This document shows, in pieces, positions 1,573-58,744 of a stretch of 64,000 nt of DNA. A program made the translations under genes and the position numbers. Position 1 is the first letter of the stretch. Each line of letters begins with the position of its first letter. Under the pieces are notes generated by a model that saw only the letters and a program-made list of their open reading frames with translations, was not told where the DNA came from and searched no databases. This stretch comes from Sandaracinaceae bacterium (GTDB lineage: Bacteria; Myxococcota_A; Polyangia; Polyangiales; Sandaracinaceae), in contig JAVJQK010000037.1 in assembly GCA_040218145.1 (NCBI GenBank), forward strand, positions 1 through 64,000, given 5' to 3'.

Positions 1573-2360
1573 ACAGGCGAGACCGGAAAGCGCAGGCGGA
1601 GGAGACGGTGCGCGCGCTGGGAGACGGGCGCTACGTCACGGCCTCGGGGGCGAACGTGGAGATCCGTCACGCGCTCGACGAGGCCGTGAGGGGGACGCGG
1701 CTCTACACGCCCGACGCGCCGCCGCCGCCCGCGTCGCCGGGGACGCTTCGCACGCAGGTCGAGGTCGCCAACGAGACCACGCTCGCCGGCGCGCGCGCGC
1801 TCCTCGACGCGGGAGAGAACCCGGCGGCGCTCAACTTCGCGTCGGCCAAGAACCCGGGCGGCGGCTTCCTCGGCGGCTCGGAGGCGCAGGAGGAGAGCCT
1901 GGCCCGCGCTTCCGGCCTCTACGCCTGCCTTCGCGGCTCGCCGTACTACGACTTCCACCGCGCGCAGCGGGATCCCGTCTACAGCGATCACCTGATCGTG
2001 TCGCCCTCCCTGCCGGTGATCCGGGACGACGAGGGCGCGCTCCTCGAGGCGCCGTGGCCGTGCACGTTCGTCACGTCGCCCGCCGTCAACCGCGGCGCGC
2101 TGAAGCGGCCGGTCGACGTCGCACCCATCATGCGCCGCCGCCTCGCGAAGGTGCTCGACGCGTTCGCGGCGCACGGCTGCGTCGCGATCGTGCTCGGGGC
2201 CTGGGGCTGCGGCGTGTTCCGCAACGATCCGGTGGAGGTCGCGCACCTCTTCGCGGAGGCGCTCCGCACGACGCACCGCGGCGTCTTCTCCCGCGTGCGC
2301 TTCAGCGTGCTCGACCGCGGCGACCGCGGCACGTACCGGGCGTTCGCGCGCGCGCTCTGA
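1569..2360 (+). CDS. Microbial-type poly(ADP-ribose) glycohydrolase (TIGR02452-like)
   Basis: Predicted 263-residue macro-fold hydrolase. The segment LNFASAKNPGGGFLGGS followed by EAQEESLARAS carries the GGG and QEE motifs that define bacterial PARG; the second Glu of QEE is the catalytic acid in the family. ILGAWGCGVFRNDP further on matches the conserved GAWGCGVF.N region. The length is typical of the microbial-type subfamily, and an N-terminal helical segment precedes the macro core. It starts inside the stop codon of the NADAR gene. Both products are expected in the cytoplasm and both act on ADP-ribosyl links. No ADP-ribosyltransferase is visible nearby. Confidence 0.9.
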   Translation: MNRRDRKAQAEETVRALGDGRYVTASGANVEIRHALDEAVRGTRLYTPDAPPPPASPGTLRTQVEVANETTLAGARALLDAGENPAALNFASAKNPGGGFLGGSEAQEESLARASGLYACLRGSPYYDFHRAQRDPVYSDHLIVSPSLPVIRDDEGALLEAPWPCTFVTSPAVNRGALKRPVDVAPIMRRRLAKVLDAFAAHGCVAIVLGAWGCGVFRNDPVEVAHLFAEALRTTHRGVFSRVRFSVLDRGDRGTYRAFARAL

Positions 2361-2377
2361 GAGCGACAGGGGTGCGA

Positions 2378-3385
2378 TCAGCGGCGGACGCCCAGGGCCT
2401 CGGCGAGCTCTGCTCCCGAGAGGCCGGGCGAGCCTTCGCCGGCCTCCTCCGCCGCGTGCACGAGCGCGACGATCCGGCGGTTGATGGGCGCGTCGAGCCC
2501 CACGCGCTCGGCGACGCGCACGATCTCGCCGTTGAGGTACTCGACCTCGGTCTCGCGGCCGCGGCGCAGGTCTTCCCACATCGATGAGCGAGCCTCGGCG
2601 TCGACCTTCACCTGCGCGCGGGTCACGAGGCGCACGATCGGGGTGGGCAGACGCAGGATCTTGGGCATGAGCCACACGGGGACGCCGCGCAGCGAGGGCG
2701 GCCGGACGCCGTCGGCGCGCAGGACCCCGACGGCCTCTTCGATGATGGCGGCGACGACGAGCCGCAGCTCCCGCTCCTGAAGCATCCGCTGGGTGGGCGC
2801 GTCGGTGAGCGCGCTGACCGCGTTGTTCAGGTTCACGAGCAGCTTGGTCCACTGCGCGGGCGCGATGTCGTCCACGACCTTCGTCTCGAGCGCCCGCGCC
2901 AGCAGCGCGAAGAGCGCCTCGGCGCGCGGCTCCCGCGACAGGACCAGGGGGCCGCTGAAGCCGCGGTGGAAGACGCCCTCGCCCCGCGAGACGACGTTGA
3001 AGTCGACGATGGTGGGGACGACGGTGCGCGAGCCGAGATGCGCGCGGAGCGTGGTCGTGTTCCGCACGCCATTTTGCAGGCTTAGGATCAGGCAATCGGG
3101 GGTCAGGACCGCGTCGAGGGCGCGCGCCGCGGCTTCGGTCTGGGCGCTCTTCACGCACACGAGCACGGCCTGGCAGGCGGCCAGCGCGGTGACGTCGGTC
3201 TCGTAGCGCACAGCCTCGGGTGCGTGTCGATCGCGCCGCTCGAAGTCGCTCGCCGTCAGCCCGTGCGTCGCGATCTCGGCCTTCAAACGCGCGCGCCCGA
3301 CGAAGGTCACGTCGGCGCCCGCGCTCAGGAGCCGCGCCCCGACGAAGCAGCCGACCGAGCCCGCGCCGTAGATCCCCACCCTCAC
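2378..3385 (-). CDS. 2-dehydropantoate 2-reductase family protein (PanE/ApbA-like)
   Basis: Predicted 335-residue NADP-dependent ketopantoate reductase-like enzyme. It opens with a Rossmann motif (VGIYGAGSVGCFVGA), has VLVCVKSAQTEAAA then LSLQNGVRN, and the conserved QWTKLLVNLNNAVSAL segment containing the catalytic-type lysine and asparagines. GTG 3385 is the likely start; it overlaps the TGA of the upstream ABC transporter gene (GTGA), so the two are coupled. In pantothenate synthesis this enzyme makes pantoate, but ApbA paralogs act on other 2-oxoacids. The pairing with an ABC exporter and the lack of other pan genes argue against assuming the housekeeping role. Confidence 0.85.
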   Translation of the reverse strand: MRVGIYGAGSVGCFVGARLLSAGADVTFVGRARLKAEIATHGLTASDFERRDRHAPEAVRYETDVTALAACQAVLVCVKSAQTEAAARALDAVLTPDCLILSLQNGVRNTTTLRAHLGSRTVVPTIVDFNVVSRGEGVFHRGFSGPLVLSREPRAEALFALLARALETKVVDDIAPAQWTKLLVNLNNAVSALTDAPTQRMLQERELRLVVAAIIEEAVGVLRADGVRPPSLRGVPVWLMPKILRLPTPIVRLVTRAQVKVDAEARSSMWEDLRRGRETEVEYLNGEIVRVAERVGLDAPINRRIVALVHAAEEAGEGSPGLSGAELAEALGVRR

Positions 3386-5205
3386 CGGTACGCCTCGGCC
3401 TGGGTCTCGAAGAGCGCCGCGTAGAGGCCCTCCTCCGCCACGAGCGCGTCGTGCGTGCCCCGCTCCGCCACGCGCCCCTCGTCGAGCACGAGGATCTGAT
3501 CGGCGATGCGCGCGGTGGCGAGGCGGTGGCTGACGATGAGCCCCATGCGCCCGTCGAGGATGTCCGAGAGCCGCTCGTCGATCTCCGCCTGTCGCTTCGG
3601 GTCCGCGGCCGACGTCGGCTCGTCGAAGATCAGCAGATCGTTGCCGGTGGGCATCAGCGCGCGCGCGAAGGCGAGCCGCTGCCACTGTCCGCCGCTCAGC
3701 TCCGTCGCGCCCCGGAACGCCTTGCCGAGGCGCGTGTGATAGCCCTCGGGAAGCCGCTCGATCAGCGCGGCGGCGAGGCCCTGATCGGCCGCGCGTCGCC
3801 AGCCGTCTTCGTCCTCGAAGCGAGTGGGGTCGCCGGCGCCGATGTTCTCGCCCGCCTTCAGCTTGTAGCGGTTGAAGTCCTGGAAGAGCACCGAGATCCG
3901 CGCGCGCAGCCCGGCCACGCTCCACTCTCTCAGGTCGAGGCCGTCGAGGAGGATGCGTCCCTCCTGCGCCACGTAGCGGCGCGTGAGCAGCTTGACGAGC
4001 GTGGTCTTGCCGCTCCCGTTGTGCCCGACCACGGCGAGGGTCTGGCCCGGCTGCAGATGAAAGGACACGTCCGACAGCGCGGGCTGCGGCGCGCCGGGGT
4101 AGGTCCAGCTCAGGCCCTCGACCCGCAGTCCGTCGCTCGGGTTCGGCCCCTCGGTCGCGGACCCGGCGAGCTCCGGCACGGCGTGCTCGAGGTACGCGTC
4201 GAGGTTCTCGAGGTAGAGCGCGTCCTCGTAGATGCCGCCGAGCGCGGCGAGCGCGCTGGTCACCGCGGTCTGCCCCTGGCGGAACACGACGAGGTACATC
4301 GTCATCTGGCCGAGCGTCAGGTTGCCTTCCACCGTGTCCCAGACGATCCACAGGTAGGCGCCGAAGAACGCGGCGGTGCCGAGCAGCCCGAGGACGAGGC
4401 CCCACGCGTGCCGCTTGACCGCGATCTTGCGGTCCTCGCCGTAATAGGTCTGGAAGAGGGCGTCGTAGCGTCCGAGGAGGAGCTCGCCGAGGCCGAAGAA
4501 GCCGACCTCCTTCGCGAACTCCTCGCGCGTCAGCACGGTCTCGATGTAGTGGCGCTCGCGGTTCTCGGGCGAGTGCTGCTTGAAGAACCGGAAGGTCTGC
4601 TCGCTGAAGCGTGCCTCGGCGAGGAAGGACGGGATGCCGGCGAGCACCAGCACGAGCACCGCCCACCAGCTGAGCTGCGCGAGGAGCGCGAAGTAGCCGA
4701 CGAGGCTGATGGCGTAGCGCGCGAGGGTGAAGGCGCGGGTGATCAGGCTGAGCGGCCGCACGGTCGCCTCGCGCCTCGCCTCCTCCATGCGGTCGTGGAG
4801 CGACGGGTCCTCGAAGTCGCTCAGCCGCAGGGTGATCGCCTTCTCGAGGATGAGGTGGGTGACGGTGTGGGCGAGCTTCGCCTTGAGGAGCTGCTGGCAG
4901 AAGGTCAGCCCGCGGCCCGCCGCGACGACCGCGCCGACGAGGAGCGCCTCGGCGCCGATCGCCCACATGGCCGTGTCGCGCGCGCCGGCGACGCCGTCCA
5001 TCGCCGCGACGGTCTGGTCGACGACGATGCGCGCGACGTACGCCGCGATGGCCGGCGCGACACCCGCGACGACGGTGCTGAGCACGAGCAGGACGGTCAG
5101 CCCGCGGCTCGTGGACCAGGCCAGCTGCAAGGCGCGCAGGGAGTATCGGAGAGCGCTGGCCGCTTTCCGCGGCACGGGCAGCGCCCGAGCGTCGTCGTCG
5201 TTCAT
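3382..5205 (-). CDS. ABC transporter, fused membrane and ATPase domains
   Basis: Predicted 607-residue half-transporter of the exporter type. The N-terminal half (about residues 25-340) is hydrophobic with the six-helix layout of exporter membrane domains. The C-terminal nucleotide-binding domain has Walker A GHNGSGKTT near residue 398, signature LSGGQWQRLAFARAL near 505, Walker B LLIFDEPTSA near 525 and a switch histidine in GLIVSHRLATA. It would work as a homodimer in the inner membrane. The substrate cannot be read from sequence. It is the first gene of a two-gene unit with the PanE-like reductase. Confidence 0.93.
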   Translation of the reverse strand: MNDDDARALPVPRKAASALRYSLRALQLAWSTSRGLTVLLVLSTVVAGVAPAIAAYVARIVVDQTVAAMDGVAGARDTAMWAIGAEALLVGAVVAAGRGLTFCQQLLKAKLAHTVTHLILEKAITLRLSDFEDPSLHDRMEEARREATVRPLSLITRAFTLARYAISLVGYFALLAQLSWWAVLVLVLAGIPSFLAEARFSEQTFRFFKQHSPENRERHYIETVLTREEFAKEVGFFGLGELLLGRYDALFQTYYGEDRKIAVKRHAWGLVLGLLGTAAFFGAYLWIVWDTVEGNLTLGQMTMYLVVFRQGQTAVTSALAALGGIYEDALYLENLDAYLEHAVPELAGSATEGPNPSDGLRVEGLSWTYPGAPQPALSDVSFHLQPGQTLAVVGHNGSGKTTLVKLLTRRYVAQEGRILLDGLDLREWSVAGLRARISVLFQDFNRYKLKAGENIGAGDPTRFEDEDGWRRAADQGLAAALIERLPEGYHTRLGKAFRGATELSGGQWQRLAFARALMPTGNDLLIFDEPTSAADPKRQAEIDERLSDILDGRMGLIVSHRLATARIADQILVLDEGRVAERGTHDALVAEEGLYAALFETQAEAYR

Positions 5206-55482: not shown

Positions 55483-56154
55483 CTACTTGGGAGCGTGGAT
55501 GCGGAAGACGGCGTCGCCGTCCTGCCCGTCCGCCTCGAGGCGCGCACCGAGCGCGTCGGTGAGCGTGCGCACCGCGAGCAGGCCCACGACCCGCGAGTAG
55601 CGCCCATCGGCGCGTCCCTTGAGGATCTGCTGTCCCTCGAGGGTGAAGGCCTCCTCGCGCAGCTCCTCGCCGATCGCCCGGCCCGCGTCACGGATCTCGA
55701 CCACGCCTTCGGGGCCGTCTCGGACGATGACCTGCACCGTCTCGGCCGCGGCGTTCGCGAGCGCGTTGCGGACCAGCAGCTCCACCACCCTCGCCATGGC
55801 GCCGCCCGCGCGCGCGACCTCGACCGGCTCGTTGGGCAGGCGCACGTCGACCGGCGCGTTCGCCCGCCGGACGCCCGCCTCGACCGCGCTCCGCAGGTCC
55901 CCGGCCGAGCCCTCCATCGCGTTCTGTCCGGCGATCCAGCGGCCGACCCAGCCGACCTGCTCCAGCCCGCGCATGAGGTCTCCGAGCGCCGTCTCGACGT
56001 CGTCGAGCGCCTCGATCACGTCTTCGTCATCGCCCGCGCCCACCTCTTTGACGAAGGAGACGTTCGCGCTGATCGTCGCGACGGGGTTTCGCAGATCGTG
56101 CACGACGAGGGCGAGTAAATCGCCGATGGCCGCGCGCAGCTTTTCTTCGCTCAC
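55483..56154 (-). CDS. Soluble degenerate histidine kinase
   Basis: Predicted 223-residue protein. LLALVVHDLRNPVATISANV has the phosphoacceptor His (H-box HDLRNP, residue about 19). VELLVRNALANAA resembles the N-box. The G1 box is DAGRAIGE instead of DxGxG, and the glycine-rich G2 box is missing (SRVVGLLAVRTLTDALG), so ATP hydrolysis may be weak. No sensor domain or transmembrane helix. GTG 56154 overlaps the stop of an upstream membrane protein, which may supply the membrane anchor. Confidence 0.8.
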   Translation of the reverse strand: MSEEKLRAAIGDLLALVVHDLRNPVATISANVSFVKEVGAGDDEDVIEALDDVETALGDLMRGLEQVGWVGRWIAGQNAMEGSAGDLRSAVEAGVRRANAPVDVRLPNEPVEVARAGGAMARVVELLVRNALANAAAETVQVIVRDGPEGVVEIRDAGRAIGEELREEAFTLEGQQILKGRADGRYSRVVGLLAVRTLTDALGARLEADGQDGDAVFRIHAPK

Positions 56155-56510
56155 GTCTCCTCCGGACGCCTCGGGCGAGACTCCAGCTCTCTGTCGAGCT
56201 CGGCCCGCGCGACCTCGACGGTATCACCGAACGGCAGGTCGACGGATTCTTCTTGTTTTTTGATGGCCGCGGCGAGCGCCAGCGTCAACGGGACCGCCCC
56301 CTCGACGCTCACTCCGCGCTCGGATGGCGGGACGCCCAGGACGTCCGCGCGCCGCTCCAGCACGGGCACGACCACGCGCCGCAGCCGCGTCTCGAGCTCC
56401 AGCTGCTCGCGCCAGACCCGCCTGGTGTGCCGCCCGATCCAGACCGCGGCCCCGCCCAGCCCCAGGGCGAGACCGAAGAGCACACCCAGCGCGGCGTCGA
56501 GGCTCGGCAC
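56151..56510 (-). CDS. Small membrane protein upstream of histidine kinase
   Basis: Predicted 119-residue protein with one transmembrane helix (about residues 5-25, AALGVLFGLALGLGGAAVW), followed by a basic and then charged helical cytoplasmic part. It is translationally coupled (GTGA) to the degenerate histidine kinase, so the pair looks like a split sensor. ATG 56510 is used. No family recognised. Confidence 0.7.
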   Translation of the reverse strand: MPSLDAALGVLFGLALGLGGAAVWIGRHTRRVWREQLELETRLRRVVVPVLERRADVLGVPPSERGVSVEGAVPLTLALAAAIKKQEESVDLPFGDTVEVARAELDRELESRPRRPEET

Positions 56511-56576: not shown

Positions 56577-57536
56577 TCAGTCCCAGGTCAGGACGGCGGC
56601 TTCGCCGTGCAGGGCGATCAGGCCGCCCACGTAGGACAGGAGCGCGCGCCGCCGCTGCATCACGCCCGCGATCTGCGCGTCGTCGAGGATGTCGCGGATC
56701 TCGGCCTCCGGGTCCTCGGCCAGCGAGGCGCGCAGCCTCACCTCGCTCAGCCCACGCACGGCGTCGACGAAGCGTCGCGAGAAGCGCTGGGTGCGCTCGA
56801 GGTGGCCCCGGATCCGCTCGTAGCGGTGATCGGTCAGGGGCGTCTGGAACGCGACGTTGTGGTCCCGCACGAAGAGCCTCCGCCCCTCGTCGTCGGTCGA
56901 GACGTTCCCGCCGCTGAAGCGGTCCCAGTTCCCGATGAGGTAGTCGAACGCGAGCATGGTCGAGAGATCCCGGGCCACCTGGCTCGACTCGGCGGGCGGC
57001 ATCGGCTCCCCGACGCGCAGCCAGGGCGCGACCTCGGAGAGCCCCTCGAAGGTGGCCAGCTCGCTCGAGCGCATCCTCGGGATCCAGTAGATCGCGGCTC
57101 CGCGCGCCACGCCGGGGGCGTCCCAGAGGATCTCCTGGCGGATCGGCTCCCAGTCCTCCTCGTGCTCGCTCTCGAAGCGCGCCTCCATCAGCCGCCGCGG
57201 GATCCGCAGCCCCACGGCCGGCGGCACGTTGTCCATCTCGAGCGCGCGCGCGACGCGGTAGGCGGCGATCTCCGACAGGTAGCCGCGCGGATGAGAGCGC
57301 GTGCGCGGCTTGAACGCGGCGTTGGCCCCCACCCCGAGGTCGAGCTTCAGGGTGACGCTGCTCGTGCCGACCTGCTCGAGGGAGCGCGGCACGCGGGTCG
57401 TGAGCCGGGCGAGGATGGCGTCCTGTCCGAGCTCGCCGCCGACGAAGGGGAGGGGAGGGGCCTGCGCGGCCACGCTGCCGGCGACGCCCAGGGCGGCGAA
57501 GAGGAGGAACGCTCTCGCGTGTCTCGAGTGGCTCAC
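56577..57536 (-). CDS. Secreted Fam20-like kinase candidate
   Basis: Predicted 319-residue exported protein. Signal peptide to about residue 25 (GSVAAQAPP). Lys76 in NAAFKPRTR and Glu89 in YLSEIAAYRVARAL fit the ATP-binding Lys and helix C Glu. LAFDYLIGNWDRFSGGN (Asp205) and LFVRDHNVAF (Asp225) match the catalytic and metal-binding aspartates of Fam20/Four-jointed kinases (family form: IGNxDR...DN). This is a motif-level call; homology should be tested by structure. Such kinases phosphorylate exported proteins or glycans, with ATP outside the cytoplasm. GTG 57536 is used. Confidence 0.75.
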   Translation of the reverse strand: MSHSRHARAFLLFAALGVAGSVAAQAPPLPFVGGELGQDAILARLTTRVPRSLEQVGTSSVTLKLDLGVGANAAFKPRTRSHPRGYLSEIAAYRVARALEMDNVPPAVGLRIPRRLMEARFESEHEEDWEPIRQEILWDAPGVARGAAIYWIPRMRSSELATFEGLSEVAPWLRVGEPMPPAESSQVARDLSTMLAFDYLIGNWDRFSGGNVSTDDEGRRLFVRDHNVAFQTPLTDHRYERIRGHLERTQRFSRRFVDAVRGLSEVRLRASLAEDPEAEIRDILDDAQIAGVMQRRRALLSYVGGLIALHGEAAVLTWD

Positions 57537-57598: not shown

Positions 57599-57724
57599 CT
57601 ACTTCTTGCGCTCGCGCTGGCGCCGCTCGAGCTCGGCGCGCGCGGCCCGGGCCCCGAGGACGTAGCCCACCGCGACGCCCACCAGCAAGATCCCCGGGAT
57701 GTAGATGATGTGCTCGACCGGCAA
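57599..57724 (-). CDS. Very small CcmD-like membrane protein
   Basis: A 41-codon frame from TTG 57724 to TAG 57599. It encodes EHIIYIPGILLVGVAVGYVL (one helix) then an Arg/Glu-rich tail, ARAELERRQRERKK. GAGGG is about 8 bases upstream. Length and layout match CcmD, the small haem-chaperone partner in cytochrome c maturation. It lies 4 bases after the stop of the second small Ccm protein. Confidence 0.65.
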   Translation of the reverse strand: MPVEHIIYIPGILLVGVAVGYVLGARAARAELERRQRERKK

Positions 57725-57728
57725 CGGC

Positions 57729-58034
57729 TCAGCCCTCGCGCTTGGACAGATCCGCGCGCAGCCGATCGAGCTCGCGCGCCGTGCGCGCCTGCCGCATGCC
57801 GATGCTCACCACGTAGCCGAGCAGCAGCACGAGCGTGACCCCGTACGCGCCGACCATCAGCATCCCGCCCGGGATGTTCTCGGTCTGCGCGCCCTCGGCC
57901 GCCTGGAAGCTCTCCGCCCGCGACTCGGCCGCGTCCTCCTCCTGCGCCAGCGCCGCGCTCGGGGCGAGCAGGGGGACGAGCAGGGGCGACAGGGACATCC
58001 CGACCACGAGCGCGAGCATGCCGAGCGACTTCAT
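57729..58034 (-). CDS. Small membrane protein in ccm unit
   Basis: Predicted 101-residue protein with a signal-like N-terminal helix (about 5-30, ending AALAQEED), an acidic linker, and a second hydrophobic helix (MLMVGAYGVTLVLLLGYVV) with a basic tail (RQARTARELDRLRADL). It overlaps ccmC by ATGA and precedes the 41-residue frame. It could be a CcmD-like or adaptor protein of cytochrome c maturation. ATG 58034 is used. Confidence 0.75.
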   Translation of the reverse strand: MKSLGMLALVVGMSLSPLLVPLLAPSAALAQEEDAAESRAESFQAAEGAQTENIPGGMLMVGAYGVTLVLLLGYVVSIGMRQARTARELDRLRADLSKREG

Positions 58035-58744
58035 ACGTCCTCCAGGAGACCGCGCTCCGCCGCCTCGAGCTCGAGGGCCTGGAGCGCCTGCCGGTCGCGT
58101 TCGGTGCGCATCCGGGTCCATATCAAGAGCGCGACGAGCGCGGTGAAGAGCACGAACCCGACGAGCAGCGCGTGCGTCATGTCGGGGTGCAGCCCGCCGC
58201 CTCGCGAGGTGATCACCGTGGGGTGCGTGCCCCGCCAGCGCTGCACGGAGTAGTGGATCACGGGCAGGTCGAAGAGGCCCACGATGGCGAGCCCGGCCGC
58301 GAACCTGCGCTCCGCCTCCCCGCCCCCGAAGGAGCGCAAGACGACGTACGCGGTGAAGATCATGCCCGCGAGGAGCGTGGTGGTCAGGCGCGGATCCCAG
58401 GTCCACCAGTAGCCCCACGCCTTGCGGGCCCAGAGCGGGCCGGTGATCAGGACGACGAGGCAGAAGACGAGCCCCACCTCGGCCCCGGCCACCGCGAGGG
58501 CGTCCCACTTCTCGTCCCGCTTGATCAGGAAGATGGCGGAGCCGAACGCGCAGACGACGAAGCCGACGTACATCGCGTACGCGCTGGGCACGTGGATGTA
58601 GAAGATCTTCTGCACGATCCCCATGCGCATCTCGGTCGGCGCGTGGAAGAAGGTGGCCCAGACGCTGACCAGGACGAGGGCCATCGTGACGGCCGCCAGG
58701 ATCAACCAGCCGAGGGGCGGTCGGGTCGCGCTCGTGTCCTTCAT
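58031..58744 (-). CDS. ccmC: CcmC/CcsA-family haem-handling protein
   Basis: Predicted 237-residue membrane protein of six helices. IVQKIFYIHVPSAY and the tryptophan-rich WGYWWTWDPR motif bind haem on the outer face in the family; conserved His flank it (FYIHVPSA, VIHYSVQRW). System I maturation delivers haem to apocytochromes in the periplasm. Length matches CcmC rather than the larger CcmF. It heads a coupled three-gene unit; other ccm genes are not in the window. Confidence 0.9.
   Translation of the reverse strand: MKDTSATRPPLGWLILAAVTMALVLVSVWATFFHAPTEMRMGIVQKIFYIHVPSAYAMYVGFVVCAFGSAIFLIKRDEKWDALAVAGAEVGLVFCLVVLITGPLWARKAWGYWWTWDPRLTTTLLAGMIFTAYVVLRSFGGGEAERRFAAGLAIVGLFDLPVIHYSVQRWRGTHPTVITSRGGGLHPDMTHALLVGFVLFTALVALLIWTRMRTERDRQALQALELEAAERGLLEDV

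Follow-up and report, generated by a model that had tools for sequence, protein, structure and literature searches.

A predicted exported Fam20-like kinase in a myxobacterium of the family Sandaracinaceae

Fam20 kinases and the gene in the window

Animals use Fam20 kinases to phosphorylate secreted proteins and sugars, and the family has so far been described as an animal one. In animals, phosphorylation beyond the cytoplasm has been studied extensively; for bacteria it is hardly known at all. Published work follows the evolution of Fam20 no further back than sponges (PMC5865150) and describes the FAM20 cluster as eukaryotic- or Metazoa-specific (PMC9758233). Fam20 proteins have four disulfides, Glu306 in the beta3-alpha3 loop is essential in FAM20C, and the catalytic base of hydra Fam20 is Asp299 in the numbering used there (PMC5865150). 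In FAM20C, Asp451 and Arg459 are both mutated in Raine syndrome (PMC7948968). Among bacterial kinases, CotH resembles Fam20C in sequence (PMC12189002). A search of the open-licence literature, which omits most subscription journals, turned up no report of Fam20 in myxobacteria.

We analysed a window of 64,000 nucleotides from a Sandaracinaceae bacterium with a genome of 11.06 Mb. An initial annotation had described an open reading frame in it as a secreted kinase of the Fam20/Four-jointed type. The frame lies exactly at the coordinates given there, on the minus strand, with a GTG start and 319 codons' worth of protein, and the signal peptide, Lys76, Glu89, LIGNWDR with Asp205 and VRDHNVAF with Asp225 were all found at the residue numbers claimed. 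The features of the gene are as follows.

56577..57536, minus strand: gene for the predicted exported Fam20-like kinase (open reading frame of 319 aa, GTG start; homologs, AF2 model and FAM20C profile match)
57465..57536, minus strand: predicted Sec signal peptide, residues 1-24 (from sequence, homolog scan and low pLDDT)
57309..57311, minus strand: Lys76, at the position of the ATP-phosphate lysine and opposite the Lys of FAM20C ALFKPMK in the alignment (homologs have Lys or Arg)
57270..57272, minus strand: Glu89, the helix alpha-C glutamate, in LSEIAAYR (invariant; opposite the Glu of FAM20C NAEIAAFH in the alignment)
56904..56948, minus strand: catalytic loop FDYLIGNWDRFSGGN, with Asp198, Asn203, Asp205, Arg206 and Asn211 (from the alignment)
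56847..56870, minus strand: predicted metal-binding motif VRDHNVAF with Asp225, the DFG equivalent (aligned to FAM20C HLDNGRGF)

This is a real gene and not a chance frame, because homologs are encoded in 79 of 96 related genomes (protein search, E <= 0.001) and the catalytic residues are invariant in 38 homologs. The same search found up to six copies per genome, and the 30 nearest homologs could be aligned along their entire length.

Fold, family and catalytic residues

The AlphaFold2 model, built with 38 homologs, reached a pLDDT of 89.9 and a pTM of 0.87, with disorder confined to the signal peptide. When the model was searched against the PDB with Foldseek, the first 27 matches were without exception Fam20 chains (E 2e-12 to 1e-9); PI4-kinase type II (PI4KII; 2e-7) came next, and CtkA (7e-5) later. 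A second aligner (VIA) gave Z scores of 22.4-23.6 for Fam20 over residues 30-319, and of 18.1 for PI4KII, 16.6 for CtkA, 13.5 for actin-fragmin kinase, 12.8 for HipA and 12.2 for CotH. Set against FAM20C, HipA and CotH, the structures with which the initial annotation had proposed to compare it, the modelled protein is kinase-like in fold and closest to Fam20 by both methods. No solved chain of Four-jointed turned up for structural comparison.

The likeness to Fam20A/B/C extends over the whole kinase-domain fold including the C-terminal helices (Z 22-24), and the C-terminal end of the model is covered by Fam20 and not by most other matches. PI4KII, the next nearest fold (Z 18), has a similar N-lobe motif and a 120-residue alignment, but its alignment stops at about residue 307-315 and does not reach the Fam20-like C-terminal end; its sequence link to the window protein is marginal (E 0.03), and it is a cytosolic membrane lipid kinase. 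HipA, HipA_2 and SCO1664 share a kinase-like fold and a short motif match near Asp205 and Asp225, but they are cytosolic, HipA reaches a Z of 12.8, and the window protein lies under their family cut-offs. CotH, a spore coat kinase that acts on spore coat proteins, is much more distant than Fam20.

Single-sequence searches of Pfam and TIGR gave weak matches, all below cut-offs: HipA_2 (PF20613; E 4e-5, 23.5 bits over 54 residues, cut-off 27), SCO1664 (TIGR03843; E 5e-5, 22.8 bits, cut-off 172.4) and Fam20C (PF06702; E 0.3, 11.1 bits, curated cut-off 26.8). The window protein had no match to the CotH Pfam family and none at E 10 to FAM198 (cut-off 25 bits), against which one sister-branch protein (L074) scored 26.1 bits. 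Two assignments were rejected here: a HipA-type toxin, for its weak sequence match, the fold score of 12.8 and no HipB neighbour seen; and membership of the SCO1664 family, for a score far under the cut-off. A CotH kinase was set aside as improbable, for the missing Pfam match and the Z of 12.2. A profile of the family (A2) searched against the PDB found human FAM20C at E 2.4e-16, and the chains below 0.01 were Fam20 only. In a 21-member set, 18 proteins matched the Pfam family Fam20C with an E of 1 or less (best 6e-9), and some orthologs linked to ccm genes scored above the Fam20C cut-off (G019:C28, 38.3 bits; G011:C8, 35.5 bits).

The 38-sequence alignment showed E89, W151, D198, N203, D205, R206, S208, G209 and D225 to be invariant, and N211, the catalytic-loop Asn, was kept in 35 of the 38. 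Substitution of the two aspartates in homologs had been named beforehand as evidence against a kinase; both are unsubstituted in this alignment, and one degenerate ortholog (L081, described below) lacks them. Asp205 aligns with hydra Fam20 Asp299 and Asp225 with the Asp of HLDN, while Asp198 and Arg206 align with FAM20C Asp451 and Arg459. The motifs FKP, EIAAxxxxR, FDxLxGNxDR and an LDxxxxF-like element are common to Fam20 and the window family, as is the secretory route.

The differences from animal Fam20 are also clear. Glu306 of Fam20C (Asp in Fam20B) is Arg84 in the window protein, and homologs mostly have R, D, H, S, A or G there. Whereas Fam20 has four conserved disulfides, the window protein contains 0 Cys; it is also shorter, without the Cys-rich insert. 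The GGN of the catalytic loop (NWDRFSGGN) is kept, its Asn being missing from Fam20, and the Lys76 position, unlike that of Fam20, may be Arg in homologs. Because the Glu306 equivalent and the Fam20 disulfides are absent and the loop carries an Asn that Fam20 lacks, the window protein is a Fam20 relative and not a Fam20A/B/C orthologue. The Fam20-like reading of the initial annotation is supported by the fold, the profile match and the retention of both Asp, with kinase activity itself a prediction.

Export signals and the sister branch

The predicted signal peptide of the window protein is MSHSRHARAFLLFAALGVAGSVAA, followed by QAP, with the cleavage site between VAA and QAP placed by eye; AF2 pLDDT is under 50 for residues 3-24. 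A scan that was rule-based rather than a trained predictor assigned a signal peptide to 35 of the 42 homolog loci, 26 of Sec type and 9 of lipoprotein type; visual inspection also picks out a lipobox in several of the 26. As a control, the same scan scored 1 of 36 proteins from three cytosolic neighbour families. Among the seven loci without a signal, the start is cut by a contig end or masked bases in L038, L059 and L062; L070-L072 are distant forms preceded by apparent TPR-type repeats; and the seventh is L066. Tat motifs occur in copies from a different family of the order: SRRALL (L089), SRRHLL (L124) and SRRQMI (L129). The secretion claimed at the outset is thus supported at the level of the family, in which signal peptides, lipoboxes or Tat motifs recur. 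Since three kinds of export signal (Sec, lipobox and Tat) occur in one family, we would argue from these sequences that location outside the cytoplasm matters for the kinase.

With Tat in place of Sec or lipoprotein signals at L089, L124 and L129, the enzyme family may exit the cell folded. Tat exports folded proteins, so a bound nucleotide could in principle travel along. A further form, in other bacteria (Myxococcota where known), is a longer protein in which a stretch that looks TPR-type by eye precedes the Fam20-like kinase domain (L070, L072, L133, L134 and L136); no export signal was seen in these five.

A second copy in the same genome as the window (G000:C7:2302-3174) belongs to a sister branch and scores 31.5 bits, above the Fam20C cut-off. 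Fam20C matches were found in 65 of 183 genomes of the order, against 0 of 14 control genomes. A profile of 14 paralog proteins (A3) finds FAM20C at E 1e-38, and the Lys is invariant in all 14. In two trees, which were unrooted because too few HipA_2 sequences were usable as an outgroup and in which five PDB sequences stood for the animals, the five animal Fam20 sequences grouped with bacterial members of what we label, by inference, the Polyangiaceae type (support 100/95 and 100/99). The window gene fell in the other, ccm-linked branch in both. The branch leading to the animals is long (1.6-1.9). In AU tests, a tree in which 18 bacterial sister-branch rows exclude the animals was not rejected (p 0.15), nor was one in which 11 Polyangiaceae-type rows exclude them (p 0.49), and therefore no direction of transfer is claimed.

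All eleven Polyangiaceae-type members of the second tree have exactly two Cys (L074-L078, L093-L095, L101, L104 and L111). In the five that were aligned (L074-L078), the pair corresponds to hydra Cys341 and Cys400, which make up one of the four disulfides of Fam20. A possible, if doubtful, account is that Fam20 is not an animal invention: the myxobacterial exported family would be old and varied, and animals would have acquired a Polyangiaceae-type member that already had an export signal and one disulfide.

At L079, L080, L082 and L086, the next gene after the sister-branch kinase, in the same orientation, is a PAD_porph gene of the agmatine deiminase type, and most of these loci continue with a carbon-nitrogen hydrolase gene, as in putrescine synthesis. 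The second kinase copy of the window's genome (L073, on G000:C7) stands head to head with a gene for a phosphodiester glycosidase of the NAGPA type (2299-3693 minus and 3563-4693 plus), and a similar gene adjoins the kinase copy at L084.

Proposed activity, alternatives and gene neighbourhood

With a probability of about 0.62, the product of the window gene is an exported atypical kinase, either periplasmic or attached to the surface, that belongs to the Fam20 branch of the protein-kinase-like superfamily and acts on an envelope or secreted target. A nucleotide and a metal would be bound between the two lobes, and Asp205 would act as the base on a hydroxyl group. The phosphate would pass to an envelope or secreted acceptor, either Ser/Thr of a protein, the Fam20C case, or the hydroxyl of a sugar, the Fam20B case. 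The weak point of this mechanism is ATP outside a Gram-negative cell: we know of no established ATP pool in the bacterial periplasm, and release from lysed cells or leakage would be possible sources.

A sub-case of this explanation, which we put forward tentatively, is an exported sugar or lipid kinase that marks lipopolysaccharide, exopolysaccharide or phospholipid. PI4KII is the next nearest fold, the window family is without the FYFS motif, which in Fam20C shuts sugar out of the pocket, and the Fam20B sugar kinase has been argued to be ancestral in animals (PMC5865150). However, no glycan-synthesis genes were recognised nearby at the window locus, and conservation does not extend to Fam20B sugar-pocket residues such as His301.

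Position 76 bears on whether the protein phosphorylates at all. The initial annotation had counted Lys76 as part of the kinase pattern, and it is indeed present in the window protein (AAFKPR), but between a quarter and two fifths of homologs have Arg instead: the 38 aligned homologs comprise 29 with K and 9 with R, and the 30 closest genome homologs 18 with K and 12 with R. A change from Lys to Arg at the ATP-phosphate position usually cripples canonical kinases. The Arg in these homologs would fit an exported pseudokinase, or a kinase fold with other chemistry (AMP transfer as in SelO, glutamylation as in SidJ), which would bind a nucleotide or some other ligand and phosphorylate nothing. The missing Glu306 and the loss of both Asp in L081 point the same way, and Fam20A is a precedent for pseudokinases in the Fam20 family (PMC5865150). 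We consider this unlikely for the window protein, as both Asp, the alpha-C Glu and the loop Asn (35 of 38) are kept in very divergent members, and position 76 is always Lys or Arg, with Lys throughout the paralog branch.

The L081 gene (G009:C18:289500-297500, kinase at 3555-4397 on the minus strand) is an ortholog at the same ccm locus. Both Asp are lost: NWDR has become NWGR, and the metal-Asp motif reads WGYARAF. Judged from these motifs, it would be a natural pseudokinase, in a relation like that of FAM20A to FAM20C.

The neighbours of the window gene are all on its strand.

58031..58744, minus strand: CcmC-like cytochrome c assembly protein, upstream (Pfam Cytochrom_C_asm, E 6e-27; synteny)
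57729..58034, minus strand: CcmD-like haem exporter protein, upstream (Pfam CcmD, E 9e-5, below cut-off; synteny)
57599..57724, minus strand: small membrane protein of 41 aa, upstream
56151..56510, minus strand: small protein with an N-terminal membrane segment, downstream (no Pfam match; kept in nearest relatives)
55483..56154, minus strand: single-module histidine kinase (HisKA + HATPase_c), downstream (overlaps the small-protein gene by 4 bp)

A YbjN-like gene lies further downstream, past the histidine kinase. The conserved run reads ccmC, ccmD, small membrane protein, in many relatives acyl-CoA dehydrogenase, then the exported kinase and the histidine kinase. The exported kinase adjoins the histidine kinase in most loci, and this gene order suggests that the two may share a regulatory role.

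The placement in this run, with ccmC, ccmD and the small membrane protein upstream in 28 of 42 homolog loci, would suit a helper of cytochrome c maturation. We consider that role improbable. Where relatives have a wider gap between the small membrane protein and the kinase, the gap holds an acyl-CoA dehydrogenase gene (read in L039 and L034), and the functional tie to haem handling is therefore weakened. Moreover, the distant loci L065 and L067 keep the pair of exported kinase and histidine kinase without ccm genes nearby, and the second paralog of the window's genome is located elsewhere. Assignment as a cytochrome c maturation factor, for which gene order was the support, was rejected. A cytoplasmic enzyme like HipA or PI4-kinase with a misread signal peptide is scarcely credible: HipA_2 is the best Pfam match of the window protein (under cut-off), but three types of export signal recur in the family and not in cytosolic neighbours, and HipA reaches Z 12.8 against 23.6 for Fam20.

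For the exported Fam20-like kinase, the significance lies in what a conserved bacterial family of this kind would make testable. With such a family, experiments could ask if envelope or secreted molecules of bacteria are phosphorylated once exported and from what source the nucleotide is drawn, and the origin of the secretory-pathway kinases of animals would become open to test in the same way.
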